A stretch of 47,234 nucleotides of DNA from a bacterium (GTDB lineage Bacteria > Patescibacteriota > Patescibacteriia > UBA9570), in assembly GCA_030698395.1 (NCBI GenBank), contig JAUYKW010000023.1:1-47234 (forward strand). Direction: 5' to 3'. Positions within the stretch are counted from its first letter, which is position 1, and the number at the start of each line of letters is the position of its first letter. A program made the translations under genes and the position numbers. The notes under the pieces were generated by a model. That model saw only the letters and a list, made by a program, of their open reading frames with translations. It searched no databases and was not told where the DNA came from. Below are positions 9,944 through 17,474 of this stretch, in pieces.

Positions 9944-10049
9944 CCATTTTTAATGTGAGGTTTAGTAATTCAGGAAGATGGGTATTTTAGGGAACTGGCG
10001 TGAAGTGAATCACGTAGCTCAACCACGGTATACCCGACCGTTTTTCTTT

Positions 10050-10712
10050 CTACTCCTCCGAGATGGTGGGCTTGAAGGCCCCGTCCACCCGCAGGCGGTG
10101 GCGAGCCTCGAGCCGGATGGCCTGGCGATCGACCGGCTTCATCCAGACGAATCCGCCGCCATCAACCCGGCGAGACCAGGAGATGCGAACGAACTCGCCT
10201 ACGATGCCGTGCAGCACCGCGTCCATCACCATCACTCCGGCCGGGAGGTTGGGTGGGACGAGCACGACGTTCGGGTCGGCCGCCATCAGCCGCGAACGAA
10301 TGGCGTCGGGGAGCGTCATCAGCGCATCGATCACCGAATCCCGGAGGGCGTCGGTGGTGTCGATGTTCAGGTGGATCGCGTGATCCACCATGATCGCTCC
10401 CGTTCCCCAGTCGGCTTCGAAAGCACGAAGGGGGTGGCCGCTCATGTTCACGATGGTGAGCGGTCCCGCGGTGGCAGAGCCCCGAATGGCCACGGTGGCC
10501 TTGCGGGTCTGAGCGACGGCGACGAGGATCGCCACCATGGAAATCACACCCGTGAACGGCTCCAAAAAATTCCAGAGACCGAGCGACCAGACGACGAGAG
10601 CGGCGACCACGGCGCTCGGCACCCAGATACGGATGTCGGCGAAGATGTGGGCCAGCTTGTCACCGGCGGTGGAGAGGGCGGGGAGGACGGTGTTGTCGAG
10701 GAACGTGCGCAT
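10050..10712 (-). CDS. Membrane-anchored protein with a Csx15-like soluble domain
   Basis: RBS aaaaaaggagaagaaatcATG at 10712 (ORF track start at 10874 is too long); hydrophobic helices VPSAVVAALVVWSLGLW / FTGVISMVAILVAVA; soluble part LTIVNMSGHPL...VVLVPPNLPAGVMVMDAVLHGIVGEFVRISW...DRQAIRLEARHRLR. Confidence 0.65.
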   Translation of the reverse strand: MRTFLDNTVLPALSTAGDKLAHIFADIRIWVPSAVVAALVVWSLGLWNFLEPFTGVISMVAILVAVAQTRKATVAIRGSATAGPLTIVNMSGHPLRAFEADWGTGAIMVDHAIHLNIDTTDALRDSVIDALMTLPDAIRSRLMAADPNVVLVPPNLPAGVMVMDAVLHGIVGEFVRISWSRRVDGGGFVWMKPVDRQAIRLEARHRLRVDGAFKPTISEE

Positions 10713-10820
10713 GATTTCTTCTCCTTTTTTGAGAAAGACTGAGTGGCGCCCAGAGTGGAGGGGTTTTGGTTCCACTTCTATAATCACCTTTGGATTTTTA
10801 AAGATGAGTATGGAAGCGGT

Positions 10821-10865
10821 GGTCGACGGCGAGATTCCTTGTTGAAGGGAAACCCGCCGCCGACC
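10821..10865. other. GC-rich inverted repeat between the Csx3-like and TM-Csx15-like genes
   Basis: ggtcgacggcg (10821-10831) vs cgccgccgacc (10855-10865), 10 of 11 paired. Confidence 0.6.
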
Positions 10866-10880
10866 GATCCGCAAGAACCG

Positions 10881-11456
10881 CTACTTGTGGTCGATCACCA
10901 CGACCCGGGCTGCGTTGGGAGCGCTGTACACGACCTGGCCTCCGCGCGAGTGCAGCGCGGCCGCGAGGGCAAGGTACAGCCAGATCGGACCGGGACCCGA
11001 GAGCACCACCTCGAACTCGGGCAGCGAACACCCGGGGCGGAACGCGGGCAGGAGCGCCAGCGCCTTCGCTTGGTACTCCACGACGGAGCCCAGTTCGAAG
11101 TTGATGCGCTGGCCGGGCGCGGGGGTGGGGACGAGGGTGGTGATGTCGAGGACGATCTGTCCCTCGACGATGGCGGAGCCGTCACCGCTCGCGACGCCGA
11201 CCGCGACGGGCGAGTAGTCCACACCCGGGGCCTGGTAGTGAATGCCGCCGTCCGGGATGGTACCGTGCGCGGCGTGCCACACGGCGAGGTAGAGCCAAGC
11301 GGGACCGGGGCCGGTGAGGGTGATGGACGAATGGCCGGTGATCCGGGTCAGGAAGGTGTTGATGTACGTGGGGAGATCTTCCACCACGAAGTTCACCTTG
11401 CCCTCCGGGATGGAGGCGTCGGTGGTCAGGAGAGAACGCAGATCGAGAGTGAGCAT
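10881..11456 (-). CDS. Tandem Csx3-like protein (two Csx3 modules)
   Basis: ITLTGPGPAWLYLAVWHAAHG...IHYQAPGVDYSPVAVGV and EVVLSGPGPIWLYLALAAALHSRGGQVVYSAPNAARVVVIDH; strong RBS aaggaggacatATG. Confidence 0.75.
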   Translation of the reverse strand: MLTLDLRSLLTTDASIPEGKVNFVVEDLPTYINTFLTRITGHSSITLTGPGPAWLYLAVWHAAHGTIPDGGIHYQAPGVDYSPVAVGVASGDGSAIVEGQIVLDITTLVPTPAPGQRINFELGSVVEYQAKALALLPAFRPGCSLPEFEVVLSGPGPIWLYLALAAALHSRGGQVVYSAPNAARVVVIDHK

Positions 11457-11495
11457 ATGTCCTCCTTGGACATCCGTGCAGCGCCGAGATGAAAT

Positions 11496-11554
11496 CCGGT
11501 TGCAGGTAGCGAGGGAGAAAGGTTATTACATTCTCACTTAATACCTACAACCGG
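11496..11554. promoter_or_regulatory. Inverted repeat upstream of the tandem Csx3-like gene (possible operator, leader structure or insertion boundary)
   Basis: ccggttgcaggta (11496-11508) / tacctacaaccgg (11542-11554), 12 of 13 paired, 33-nt spacer. Confidence 0.5.
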
Positions 11555-12290: not shown

Positions 12291-12453
12291 GCTCTCCCCT
12301 TAAATCTACTTCATTTTTAAGTTCCAACTCACCCACAAGTTTTGATAAAATCTCAAGACTCTCTGTTTGTGGAGGTCGAAGACTAAGCCTGTTGTTAATA
12401 GTTTGAGCATTTTTATTCATAGTCTTCATGGTTAAGATCTTGGTCATCAGCAA
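12172..12453 (-). pseudogene. Truncated N-terminal fragment of a type III-like restriction (Res) helicase-nuclease
   Basis: NNRLSLRPPQTESLEILSKLVGEL resembles N-termini of Res subunits; no helicase motifs follow in any frame; overlaps the mod stop. Confidence 0.45.
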
Positions 12454-14050
12454 CTTCTTCAGTTGATTGAATAATATTCAAATCATAATTGTCTTGACCA
12501 AATTCACATTTACCTAGAATCATTAAAGGAATTTTCTTGATCGTGATATTAGGATGTCGGCTATCACATTCGGGAGCATAAGATTTAGCACAAATAAGCA
12601 AGCTTTCCTCATCATTCATTTCTTCATGAATCTTATCGAGTTGCTCCACAGTGACAAAGGCAGTTGTGACAAATATATGATCTGTTTCAGTTGATTGACC
12701 CTGTTTCCAATACAATTCTTCATGAGGAGCAAATCTAAAACCTTCATGCTTACACATGGCTGCACTAAGCATATTGGCATTGTACTTTTCATCAATGACC
12801 CAATTGCCGTATTTGTCTTTTTGAAGCAGACTTGGGGCAAGATTATAAAACTTGAAGCCACCTCCACCTTTCCAGCTCAATGTCTCGGAAAGTAGTAATC
12901 CATCAGTATTATCTACTACCTTCCTGAGTCTTGGTAAGCAGTGCGTATTAGCATGTTCACCATACTCAATCCCAATATGCCTTCTGTTCATTTTATGGGC
13001 AACGGCTGAAGTTGTTCCTGATCCAAGAAAACTATCAAGGATCCAATCTCCCGGTTTTGAAGCTAGATCTAAAATTCTTTTTATAAGTCGTTCTGGTTTT
13101 GGGGTGTCGAATACGTCATCTCTAAATAATTCCTTTATTTCTCTTTTTGACTCTTGATTATCACCAACTTCTATTCGATACCAGATAGTTTTTGAAACCA
13201 TGCCTTCTTGTACTTCAGAAAGAAATCTTTTAATTCGTGGCAAACCATTCCCATCTTTTCCAAACCATATTCTATTATCTTTAATGAGTCCTTCAAATTT
13301 TTCTTTAGTAAATCCCCAGCATCTGCTATTAGGAGGATTGACAATCCTACCAGAGGGCGTAGTGATTGGAAAATCAGTATTGGCCGAGTAAGTCTTGACT
13401 GAAGGATTATCGGACATCCACGCTCCACGGGAATCATTATCAGGATTTTTATACGAAGAATTATTCTCATTTGTCCTTGGTAATAAATATGGTCGCCAAA
13501 CTGACTTATTATTTGCATACACTAAAATGTGATCATGGCTGTCGGAAAGCCATTTCGCATCATTTTGAGGAGAATATTTTTTCTCCCAAATTACATTTGC
13601 TACAAAATTCGAACGCCCAAAAACTTCATCACATAGCACTTTCAGATAATGGCTTTCATCGTCATCTATGGAAATCCAAATACTACCTGCGGTGGGGTGC
13701 AAAAGATTTTTTAAGATATCAAGTCGTGGCCTCATTAAGCTAAGCCATGTTGAGTGCTCAAGATTGTCATCATAATGCTCAAAAGCACTCCCCGTGTTGT
13801 AGGGAGGATCGATATAAATACATTTTACTTTACCAGCATAATCCTGCTCCAAAGCTTTCAAAGCTAAGAGGTTATCTCCGTGAATCAGCATGTTCTCTGA
13901 GTTCGGATCACCATATGATTTTTCAGGATCTTCAATCAGAATTCTTGGCTCCAATTTCACTTCATCATCTTTACCAATCCATGTTAGCTCAAGGCGTTGC
14001 TTCCTCTTTTTTGGAGTCTTACCGTTTTGTTGTTGATTATTATTATTCAT
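12413..14050 (-). CDS. Type III-like site-specific DNA adenine-N6 methyltransferase (Mod)
   Basis: NMLIHGDNLLALKAL, IYIDPPYNTG (DPPY), LDSFLGSGTTSAVAHKMNRRHIGIE (FxGxG). Confidence 0.9.
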   Translation of the reverse strand: MNNNNQQQNGKTPKKRKQRLELTWIGKDDEVKLEPRILIEDPEKSYGDPNSENMLIHGDNLLALKALEQDYAGKVKCIYIDPPYNTGSAFEHYDDNLEHSTWLSLMRPRLDILKNLLHPTAGSIWISIDDDESHYLKVLCDEVFGRSNFVANVIWEKKYSPQNDAKWLSDSHDHILVYANNKSVWRPYLLPRTNENNSSYKNPDNDSRGAWMSDNPSVKTYSANTDFPITTPSGRIVNPPNSRCWGFTKEKFEGLIKDNRIWFGKDGNGLPRIKRFLSEVQEGMVSKTIWYRIEVGDNQESKREIKELFRDDVFDTPKPERLIKRILDLASKPGDWILDSFLGSGTTSAVAHKMNRRHIGIEYGEHANTHCLPRLRKVVDNTDGLLLSETLSWKGGGGFKFYNLAPSLLQKDKYGNWVIDEKYNANMLSAAMCKHEGFRFAPHEELYWKQGQSTETDHIFVTTAFVTVEQLDKIHEEMNDEESLLICAKSYAPECDSRHPNITIKKIPLMILGKCEFGQDNYDLNIIQSTEEVADDQDLNHEDYE

Positions 14051-14052
14051 AT

Positions 14053-14523
14053 TTATGACCAGTTAAAAGTTTTTAATCTATTTCGAGGAATTGTATATTC
14101 TAAGATTTTCCCTCTACACTTAACATGTAATCGAGTATTATTATTCCAAGAAACAATTACACTTGTTGATTTTTTTTCAAATAAGAGGCGTGTGTTATCT
14201 ATATCTTCCCATTCAAGTGTACAAACTTCGTTATCAGCGCAGACCAAACATATCAATAAATTTTTTTCAGTTTCAATTTCTCTCAATTTAGAGATATCTG
14301 ACTCGGAAAATGTAAATGAAGAATAATGCACTTCCTTTTTTCCAATACGTACATTTGATGTGGACTTAACAAAGACCTTGTGTGTGGATTGGTTATCCGT
14401 AATCTCATAAGCACTCCATTCAAAATCATCACTTTTTTCTAGCAATTTTATATTTATTCTCGGACTTCTAATTATCTGAGATAATACAACGCCGTGATAT
14501 AATTCAAATTTAGAAATAGTCAT
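14053..14523 (-). CDS. Conserved-looking hypothetical protein in the R-M cassette
   Basis: ORF between mod and SNF2 helicase, same strand, tight spacing. Confidence 0.7.
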   Translation of the reverse strand: MTISKFELYHGVVLSQIIRSPRINIKLLEKSDDFEWSAYEITDNQSTHKVFVKSTSNVRIGKKEVHYSSFTFSESDISKLREIETEKNLLICLVCADNEVCTLEWEDIDNTRLLFEKKSTSVIVSWNNNTRLHVKCRGKILEYTIPRNRLKTFNWS

Positions 14524-14534
14524 TGTATATTTAA

Positions 14535-17474
14535 TTAAATCACTTTCCAGCGAATAGTAAATAATGGAGTAAGTGTGGAGTCTTGTTTTAACTGAGCCTC
14601 CACGCGATCGATTAGATTTTCTTTTCTTTCTTCCATTTCATCTTGAGATACAAATAGCTTTTTTCTCATTTCATTTCGTTTCTTTTCCATGTCTTTAATT
14701 TCTTTTTGCACCTTCAATTTCTCATCGAGATTCAAAATATTCTTGGAATTAGTCTTAGCTGCCTTAATATCAATATCCAGCTTCTTTAAATCCAACTCCA
14801 AGGCAATCTTCATGTCATCCGCCCACTTGTCCAGTTTTTCTACCTCAGCATCAAAGAATTCGCTATTTCTTCCTGCAATTTGTCCTGAAATTATAGTTAC
14901 TGTTTGAGCTTCAAATTCATTAATCTTATTTTCTTCTACTGAAGTTAGGGAGTCGCAAGCCTGCTCCTTTCCATAGAGGGCTAGGATTTTTTTTGCCACT
15001 TCGGATTCTAGTTTCTCACCATTATTATCAAACGCTATAGCAATAATATGATCTTCTTTTTCAAATGCCTGAACTGTATAATTGGAAACTCGTAGCAATC
15101 CGCTTTGTCCAACAAAATGTTCTAAAACTGAAATAATTGCCTGATGATTGCTATAGTCAAAAACTATCTCTTTTACAGGCAGGTCACTATTTTTTACTTC
15201 ATTCAAAATTCTTTGCGCTAATGGATGGCCTGGGCGGTAAACATGAGAATCTTCAATATTATTTCCAATTTTATATGGACCCGGTGGGATAGATTCACCC
15301 TGAAATGGGTTTTTCTCCAAAGAAAATGAATATTCATGTTCAGCAAATTTTGCACTGTCACCCAAATAAAATTTAGTAGTCTCCCATAACCATTTTTGAT
15401 AAGTATCCAGATAGCGCTGGCTTTCATGAAGATTTAATTTCAGCTTCTCATGCACTTCGGCATCAAAATTTTCAAGAAGTTTTTGTTTGGCATCACCCAT
15501 ATTTTCCTGAATACTAACATCCATTTCTTCTTGCAAAGAGTCAAATGCACTGTTTATTTCATCTTCTGATCTACAGGATTGATAAATCGAAGCAATGCGC
15601 TTCTCAAAATCCACACCTGATTCAATACTTCCAAGAACTTCATCGCTGGCACCAAATACACCTTTAAATAAATTGAACTTCTGATCTAAAAGTTCGTATA
15701 CTCGCTGATCTGCGGCGTTTTTTCTGTTGACGAAATTAATAACCACAACATCATGTTTCTGCCCATAACGATGACAACGACCGATTCTTTGCTCAATTCG
15801 TTGCGGATTCCAGGGTAAATCATAGTTTATTACCAAAGAACAAAACTGCAGATTTATTCCTTCCGCACCTGCCTCTGTGGCAATCATTATTTCCGCTTCA
15901 TTCTTAAAATAATCTACAATGGCCGCGCGCATATCAGATGTTTTTGATCCGGTAATTTTATCTGTATCTTTGTGTTTTTTCATCCATGCTAAATATATCT
16001 CTTTTGACTTAGGATCATTGTTAGAGCCATTGAAAAATACAACTTTATCTTTATAGCCATTATCAGAAAGTAGCTCTAATAAATAATTCTGAGTAATTCT
16101 AGATTCTGTAAAAATGATGGCTTTCTTTTTAGCGCCTAATTTTTCCGTCATCTGAAAACCTTTCTGTAGACCAATAAGCAAGGCATCCCCCTTTGAGTTT
16201 TTAAAGATCTTCTTTGCAAGATCTCTATATTTTTCCAAATCTATTTTCTCCGCCTTCATTGCTTGAATATCTTCTTTGGTATAAATTTTTTCTTCCTCAT
16301 TTTCCTCATCATCAATATCCTCATCATCAATCCACTCATCTGATAATTCATCAAAGGAGTCAAAATTTTCTTCGATACCAGGAATGCCTAATTCACCTTG
16401 AGCTTGCTGCTTTTTAGCTTTCTCAATCAATTTTTCCAGTTTATAGGCGAGTCCTGTAAGTGTGCTAGCAATAGCAAAAGATGATGAAGCTAGCAGTTTA
16501 CGAAGAATAAGTGACATTAAGTGTCTTTGGCTGGCTGGTAAAGCATAGAGCTTTGGTCTTTGTAGATAATCCGTCATCTCATTATAAAGCTCCACCTCTT
16601 CTTCTGATGGGACATAGTCCTCGGTAAGTGGTATGCGCTTAGTGTATTTGATATATTCTAAAACCTGTTTTCGAAGTGTTCTATTGCAGACAGTTTTTAA
16701 TCGTTTTCTCAGATCAATAAACATTTCTTGCTTTGGCTCTATCAGACCAAGTTCATTTTCGTAAATATCCTGCACTTGGGATACCCGTGAGTATTGTGAT
16801 TTGAAACTTTTTAGGTCACCAAAAACATGATCATCAATAATGCTAACAAGCCCATATAATTCGAGCAATGAATTTTGCAAAGGAGTGGCTGTAAGTAGAA
16901 TTTTAGGGACGTTCTCAAGTGAGTCCTTTATGTCTTTAGCAATTTTATTACTAGGCTTATATACATTTCTCAATCTGTGAGCTTCATCAATAATAGCTAA
17001 ATCCCACGCAGTTTGTTTTACATAGGGAGCTTTATTGCGAGCAAAATGATATGAACAAATTATAATGGTATCGCCTTGATCAAACGGATTGAGATTTCCT
17101 TCTTTTAGACATTGGTTAAACGATTTTGCTTCTAGAATTGTGGATGGAATAAAAAACTTTTCTTGAAGCTCAGTACTCCATTGTTTACGAAGGTTAGACG
17201 GCACAATCAAAAGCATTCTTCTTTTACGCTCAGCCCATTTCTGAGAAATAACCAAACCAGCTTCAATTGTTTTCCCTAAACCTACTTCATCTGCCAAAAT
17301 TGCCCCTTTGGAAAGTGGTGAGCGAAAAGCAAATAAAGCCGCTTCAATCTGATGAGGATTCAAATCAACCTGAGCATTAGATAAAGTGGAGGTAAATTTC
17401 TCCAAACTGTCAGAGGCACTCCGTTTTGTTAACTCGTAAGCATAATATTTTGCGTGGTAATCGGTTATGTTCAT
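14535..17474 (-). CDS. SNF2-family DEAD/DEAH helicase (DISARM DrmD/R-M-associated type)
   Basis: ADEVGLGKTIEAGLV, IIDEAHRLRN, LLTATPLQNS, EGINLQFCSLVINYDLPWNPQRIEQRIGRCHRYGQ. Confidence 0.9.
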   Translation of the reverse strand: MNITDYHAKYYAYELTKRSASDSLEKFTSTLSNAQVDLNPHQIEAALFAFRSPLSKGAILADEVGLGKTIEAGLVISQKWAERKRRMLLIVPSNLRKQWSTELQEKFFIPSTILEAKSFNQCLKEGNLNPFDQGDTIIICSYHFARNKAPYVKQTAWDLAIIDEAHRLRNVYKPSNKIAKDIKDSLENVPKILLTATPLQNSLLELYGLVSIIDDHVFGDLKSFKSQYSRVSQVQDIYENELGLIEPKQEMFIDLRKRLKTVCNRTLRKQVLEYIKYTKRIPLTEDYVPSEEEVELYNEMTDYLQRPKLYALPASQRHLMSLILRKLLASSSFAIASTLTGLAYKLEKLIEKAKKQQAQGELGIPGIEENFDSFDELSDEWIDDEDIDDEENEEEKIYTKEDIQAMKAEKIDLEKYRDLAKKIFKNSKGDALLIGLQKGFQMTEKLGAKKKAIIFTESRITQNYLLELLSDNGYKDKVVFFNGSNNDPKSKEIYLAWMKKHKDTDKITGSKTSDMRAAIVDYFKNEAEIMIATEAGAEGINLQFCSLVINYDLPWNPQRIEQRIGRCHRYGQKHDVVVINFVNRKNAADQRVYELLDQKFNLFKGVFGASDEVLGSIESGVDFEKRIASIYQSCRSEDEINSAFDSLQEEMDVSIQENMGDAKQKLLENFDAEVHEKLKLNLHESQRYLDTYQKWLWETTKFYLGDSAKFAEHEYSFSLEKNPFQGESIPPGPYKIGNNIEDSHVYRPGHPLAQRILNEVKNSDLPVKEIVFDYSNHQAIISVLEHFVGQSGLLRVSNYTVQAFEKEDHIIAIAFDNNGEKLESEVAKKILALYGKEQACDSLTSVEENKINEFEAQTVTIISGQIAGRNSEFFDAEVEKLDKWADDMKIALELDLKKLDIDIKAAKTNSKNILNLDEKLKVQKEIKDMEKKRNEMRKKLFVSQDEMEERKENLIDRVEAQLKQDSTLTPLFTIRWKVI

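Follow-up and report, generated by a model that had tools for sequence, protein, structure and literature searches.

A putative membrane-anchored Csx15 encoded beside a tandem Csx3 protein on a high-G+C island of a Patescibacteria genome

Introduction

Csx15, Csx3 and membrane proteins gated by cA4 are already known. The one biochemical study of Csx15 that we found presents the protein as soluble, acting as a cA4 sponge or as a slow ring nuclease, and nowhere in its text is a membrane anchor mentioned (PMC13148439). The orphan PfCsx15 sponges cA4, and CliCsx15 cuts it slowly. In both, S9, H11, H82, R116, R120 and R123 (PfCsx15 numbering) hold cA4 between head-to-tail dimers; when the His residues are mutated, stacking, sponging or cleavage is lost or impaired (PMC13148439). 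Among membrane effectors, Cap1 joins two transmembrane (TM) helices to a cA4 domain and is a pore opened by its ligand (PMC12642688). Cam1 and Csx23 are further precedents (PMC11229360), and 2TM-CARF genes are found beside mCpol (PMC12657218). For the ring nuclease Crn3/Csx3, the D69A mutant is inactive and the R71A and H80A mutants are strongly reduced in activity (PMC7371418).

Here we describe a gene pair from a Patescibacteria genome that encodes a Csx15 domain behind two predicted TM helices (TM-Csx15) and a tandem Csx3 protein. In the literature covered, to which the 2020 CARF classification does not belong, we found no published description of a two-TM anchor on Csx15 or of its recurrence in type III loci, nor of Csx15 paired with a probably cleavage-defective tandem Csx3.

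Results

TM-Csx15 has a predicted membrane anchor and a Csx15 domain

The window is a contig of 47,234 nucleotides, and the features of the pair within it are collected in Table 1. A good Shine-Dalgarno sequence, AGGAG, precedes the ATG of the TM-Csx15 gene; a longer reading frame starting from a TTG and extending to 10874 was considered but is unlikely to mark the start. The TM helices were predicted from hydropathy (per 19 residues) and charge only, with no trained predictor. As the first-pass annotation had proposed, two hydrophobic helices precede the soluble domain. The net charge after helix 2 is +3 and the Csx15 domain is therefore predicted to be cytosolic. By hydropathy and charge, TM-Csx15 thus has the N-terminal TM part and cytosolic ligand domain of the cA4-gated membrane effectors.

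Table 1. Features of the TM-Csx15 and tandem Csx3 pair and its surroundings (positions in the window)
Feature	Position	Strand	Basis
High-G+C island, 58-73% except for an intergenic dip to 45%	10020..11510		G+C profile
TM-Csx15 gene, 220 aa: two predicted TM helices and predicted cytosolic Csx15 domain	10050..10712	-	ATG at 10712, stop at 10050; NF040560, profile search
Predicted TM helix 1, residues 29-47	10572..10628	-	Kyte-Doolittle 1.89, GES 1.95
Predicted TM helix 2, residues 49-67	10512..10568	-	Kyte-Doolittle 2.07, GES 1.69
Csx15 domain, residues 84-210	10083..10463	-	HMM alignment, residues 86-205; AF2 topology, low confidence
Motif I, VNMSGHPL, residues 88-95 (S91 and H93 = PfCsx15 S9 and H11)	10428..10451	-	Csx15 alignment
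LHG motif, H168 (= PfCsx15 H82)	10206..10214	-	H in 34/36 Csx15 domains
Tandem Csx3 gene, 191 aa, upstream of TM-Csx15, same direction	10881..11456	-	PF09620; PADLOC Csx3
Csx3 copy 1: HxxH (H57, H60) kept; lacks D69, R71, H80	11181..11330	-	Alignment
Csx3 copy 2: H60, H80 kept; lacks H57, D69, R71	10887..11018	-	Alignment
Strong hairpin, 24-nt arms, upstream island edge	11496..11554	-	Fold z -6.3

That annotation had also likened the soluble domain, with VNMSGHPL near its start, to Csx15, and the profile searches agree. TM-Csx15 scores 40.3 bits against NCBIfam NF040560 (E 3e-10; curated cut-off 35), and the PADLOC Csx15 match has an E of 9e-5. A profile built from 35 other Csx15 sequences, with TM-Csx15 excluded, gives it 49.8 bits, and 42.3 bits when its closest relatives are also left out; the best of 500 shuffles of TM-Csx15 reached 3.8 bits. 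By sequence the closest PDB chain is 9tet, 'CRISPR-associated Csx15', at an E of 0.28 that is weak alone. Pfam gave no match for the protein.

Most of the residues that hold cA4 are retained. In an alignment of 36 Csx15 domains the two motif I columns carry S in 29 and H in 34. R200 and R204, in an RxxxR, match conserved Arg columns; the third Arg column of the R116, R120, R123 set is L207 in TM-Csx15, flanked by R206 and R208. Because S91, H93, H168, R200 and R204 are kept, it is likely that the Csx15 domain binds ligand. The AF2 model of the domain has the topology b-a-b-a-a-b-a-b-b-a (mean pLDDT 58.6), which agrees, at that low confidence, with a CARF-like fold minus one strand plus a b4-b5 hairpin. 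In fold searches with this model no match was significant; those listed were weak and SAVED/Cap5-like (E>0.1, Z<4), and the Csx15 structures were not among them.

The neighbouring gene encodes a tandem Csx3 probably defective in cleavage

The gene directly upstream lies in operon-like order with TM-Csx15 and matches PF09620 with 36.7 bits over two stretches (gathering cut-off 21), which confirms the pairing noticed on first inspection. Against the Crn3 equivalog TIGR02579 it scores 35 bits, below the cut-off of 55.4. We aligned the two copies with AF_1864 and AAA-Csx3 proteins. The D69 and R71 columns hold Ser and Asn in copy 2, and neither is aligned in copy 1. Since both copies lack Asp69 and Arg71, the idea of the first-pass annotation that Csx3 is an off-switch, cleaving cA4, is weakened. 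From its residues, the tandem Csx3 possibly binds a ligand, and cleavage of cA4 by the Crn3 mechanism is unlikely. The same division between HxxH and H60/H80, with D69 and R71 absent, occurs in the AAA-Csx3 proteins encoded at L160 and L161 in two further Patescibacteria. For the tandem Csx3 by itself the AF2 model was uninformative (pLDDT 40.7).

Near AAA-Csx3 genes of two Patescibacteria we also observed small proteins with ILWMSRHRPT or VLWLSQHQLT (L163:11156-11521 and L159:1-558). The first of these has no Pfam or PADLOC match.

The pair lies on one of many high-G+C islands

The host, a member of the Patescibacteria, has a 1.32-Mb genome assembled into 31 contigs, with completeness of 97% and a contamination estimate of 0.95%. 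The pair occupies an island of about 1.5 kb and about 65% G+C within this genome of 36% G+C, and the island is therefore probably a recent transfer. Patescibacteria are known to acquire genes by transfer (PMC12455944). The GC3 of the two island genes is 0.78 and 0.88, compared with about 0.2-0.3 in the adjoining host genes. Both reading frames are complete and have good Shine-Dalgarno sites, and the island edges are close to the gene ends.

The host genome, which was read in pieces, holds about 17 isolated islands of 55-66% G+C (L017, L021, L025, L027, L072, L079, L083, L085, L110, L124, L126 and others). Most of them carry one or two complete genes, so the TM-Csx15/Csx3 pair was probably acquired as one among many. 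Their genes include tubulin-like, aminotransferase, LOG-like and lipoprotein genes and unknowns. We saw no insertion site common to the island flanks, and the repeats there recur elsewhere in the host genome. The gene flanking the island had no match in nine related genomes. The hairpin upstream of tandem csx3, where the island adjoins the AT-rich flank, is single copy genome-wide; an Rfam search gave nothing, and a promoter and terminator scan stayed at chance level. The island adjoins DNA methylase and SNF2-type helicase genes (12413-17474) that probably belong to a restriction or other defence system.

No recognised synthase is encoded in the host genome

In the 97%-complete genome there was no match to the Cas10 model TIGR02578 at E<=1 and none to a separate Cas10 profile, no CRISPR array and no SMODS nucleotidyltransferase. 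Two host-genome repeats reported as CRISPR were rejected, one being a lysine-rich coding repeat (L126) and the other looking like tRNA sequence (L109). A ligand could possibly come from the unassembled 3%, from an unrecognised synthase or from another cell.

The host is the only one of 380 sampled Patescibacteria genomes with Csx15. Csx3 is present in nine of 361 other Patescibacteria, and several of these are AAA-Csx3 proteins. TM-Csx15 directly beside tandem Csx3 was found nowhere else in the sampled genomes, a sample outside which the high-G+C phyla, the probable donors, lie. Viral contigs scanned with single proteins and with motifs yielded no confirmed relative. A tblastn search of phages and plasmids gave none either, the 9tet fragment yielding one plasmid match at chance level. 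The first scan of genome contigs found nothing. The second, with an alignment as query, found five Csx15 loci and led to other phyla. In that query the first row fused TM-Csx15 with a stretch of Csx15 taken from the PDB, and the last two rows placed motif variants in filler sequence; these rows served for searching only.

Csx15 with a predicted membrane anchor occurs in other phyla

The sampled genomes were grouped under the names of their centre loci (Chlorobaculum, a Clostridiales-named MAG and an archaeal MAG). Csx15 was found in the Chlorobaculum phylum in 16 of 296 genomes, in a Bacillota phylum in 20 of 249 (above cut-off) and in an archaeal phylum in four of 195. Of the 16 genomes in the Chlorobaculum phylum, at least nine encode a Csx15 in which a basic stretch comes after an N-terminal hydrophobic helix, and several Csx15 genes in this phylum adjoin Cas10 in type III loci. 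Like TM-Csx15, the helix-bearing Csx15 of this phylum (L003-L005, L036, L038-L041) have a hydrophobic N-terminal anchor with positive charge after it and a domain predicted to be cytosolic; unlike it, they have one TM segment and a basic helix, and the TM part is not clearly homologous. In one locus (L129) TM-Csx15 adjoins Cas10 and a separate CARF-HEPN effector is present. For both of the soluble Chlorobi Csx15 examined (L143, L144), the gene directly upstream encodes a two-TM CARF protein (L143:7154-8017, L144:6754-7599); the Csx15 of their relatives is itself TM-anchored.

The first-pass annotation had named a lack of co-occurrence of Csx3 and Csx15 relatives in other genomes as grounds for refuting it. 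They do co-occur: in two Chlorobi genomes that carry one and the same locus (G640, G700), TM-Csx15 is encoded within 3 kb of an AAA-Csx3, with no Cas10 in the stretch read.

Bacillota Csx15 are mostly soluble and many are beside Cas10. The exception is the genome G804 (L127:8391-9459), where tandem TM-Csx15a and TM-Csx15b genes are flanked by Cmr genes, including a Cas10 with GGDD, on one side and Cas1-Cas2 on the other, in a complete III-B locus. Among the genes tested in this locus no CARF protein besides the pair was recognised. These two proteins are the closest relatives of the Patescibacteria TM-Csx15 (split support 89) and share with it an N-terminal TM segment and KPV[ND] near the C-terminus. 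They differ from it in having one TM segment each, a full Cmr complex with Cas1-Cas2 and no Csx3. Their losses are complementary: a lacks the motif I His (TGAP) and b lacks the LHG His (IYG). The two may form one cA4 site shared between unlike subunits.

Csx15 was also observed in other settings. A prophage-like contig (G1239) carries a Csx15-like gene of 116 aa (L190:4793-5143) with RecT, SbcC-like, repressor, replication initiator and endolysin genes as neighbours. Its product is a candidate anti-CRISPR; the 2026 Csx15 paper reports no Csx15 in phages. In L132:7523-8419 (the same gene as in L043) Csx15 is C-terminal to an apparent AlbA/Schlafen-type domain, possibly a Csx15-gated effector. 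An archaeal protein (L134:7257-8661, the same gene as in L069) has two tandem Csx15 domains and is encoded just downstream of an apparent DUF1874/Crn2-type ring nuclease gene.

Discussion

We tentatively read the locus as a horizontally acquired CRISPR-less module in which a membrane-anchored Csx15 is a cA4-gated effector and the tandem Csx3 binds ligand. TM-Csx15 would form a two-helix membrane hairpin carrying a cytosolic cA4-binding domain. In this reading cA4 would be sandwiched head to tail between Csx15 dimers, and the stacked dimers would cluster and reorient the attached membrane helices. This rearrangement might depolarise or otherwise perturb the membrane, as in cA4-gated Cam1 and Cap1. 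The tandem Csx3 may bind cyclic oligoadenylate (cOA), probably cA4, and probably does not cut it by the Crn3 mechanism; by competing for ligand it would set a threshold.

The cOA-gated membrane effector suggested by the first-pass annotation is plausible, and a membrane-tethered cA4 sponge or slow ring nuclease fits almost equally well. In this second, also possible, arrangement the helices would only hold Csx15 at the membrane, where ligand is removed and the cell protected. The protection may cover a neighbouring membrane effector, with the tandem Csx3 as a second sponge and the pair as a regulator or counter-defence module. The characterised Csx15 act as sponges or slow ring nucleases and not as effectors, which speaks against an effector, and TM-Csx15 keeps all but one of the cA4-binding residues. 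The effector reading is further weakened by the absence of the exact pair elsewhere in the sampled genomes and by the low confidence of the AF2 model. A sink requires no synthase of its own, whereas in a host without a recognised synthase an effector would have nothing to respond to, and this too counts against the effector. The separate CARF-HEPN effector beside the Cas10-linked TM-Csx15 of L129 and the Csx15-like gene among phage genes also fit a sponge. However, a sponge has no obvious gain from two TM helices, and the G804 pair is the only recognised CARF-superfamily component of its locus, unlike a pure regulator. We slightly prefer the membrane effector because the nearest relatives of TM-Csx15 are, in their III-B locus, the sole genes recognised as CARF-superfamily members and because of the Cap1 precedent. 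It is also favoured by the retained cA4-site residues, by the two predicted helices with positive charge after them, by the recurrence of anchored Csx15 in type III loci of the Chlorobaculum phylum, by the two-TM CARF genes upstream of soluble Csx15 and by the proximity of TM-Csx15 to AAA-Csx3 in G640 and G700.

It is less likely that the pair is passenger DNA: a piece of some cOA-signalling locus that recently came from a donor of high G+C, happens to be complete and has no function in its host. The composition and GC3 of the island are unlike those of the host, similar islands are numerous, no synthase was found, and Csx15 is confined to one sampled Patescibacteria genome, all as such a fragment would have it. 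Yet complete reading frames with good Shine-Dalgarno sites and island ends near gene ends would be rare for a random fragment. That the island is foreign to the organism altogether, through an assembly chimera or contamination, is very improbable. The genome is a draft and the composition is foreign, but within the same 47-kb contig the island has AT-rich host genes to its left and right, similar islands with complete genes are mostly inside contigs, and estimated contamination is below 1%.

Returning to the preferred effector reading, we regard it as doubtful, though worth stating, that membrane-anchored Csx15 is a separate, hitherto unrecognised class of cOA-gated membrane receptor, serving as an effector in some type III systems (the tandem TM-Csx15 of III-B) and here working free of CRISPR, with a cleavage-defective tandem Csx3 as a ligand buffer and a messenger from an unknown synthase or another cell. 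The pair in a symbiont-type bacterium without a recognised synthase suggests a membrane-bound receptor or sink for cOA-type signals. If many Csx15 are membrane proteins, some of them the sole recognised cA4 binders of type III loci, there may be effectors in the family, and why Csx15 binds well yet is a poor enzyme can then be tested directly. That a symbiont-type bacterium encodes two cA4-binding families without CRISPR also poses the question of the origin of the ligand.

Comparison with known systems

TM-Csx15 shares the motif I S and H, the LHG His and two Arg with the described Csx15 (NF040560; PDB 9tet, 9teu; PfCsx15, CliCsx15). Compared with PfCsx15 and CliCsx15 (PMC13148439), it adds two N-terminal TM helices and has Leu in the third Arg column; it is encoded without a type III locus, and its partner is Csx3 rather than Crn1. 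The tandem Csx3 has the GxGPxWL core in common with Crn3/Csx3 (AfCsx3) and with the AAA-tandem-Csx3 proteins (L160, L161), but lacks D69 and R71 of AfCsx3 and the AAA ATPase domain of the latter. Like Cam1, Cap1, Csx23 and the 2TM-CARF effectors, TM-Csx15 is predicted to join N-terminal TM helices to a cytosolic cyclic-nucleotide-binding domain. Unlike in these effectors, the ligand domain is of the Csx15 type rather than a canonical CARF, CARFL or Csx23 CTD, and the host genome is one in which no synthase was found.
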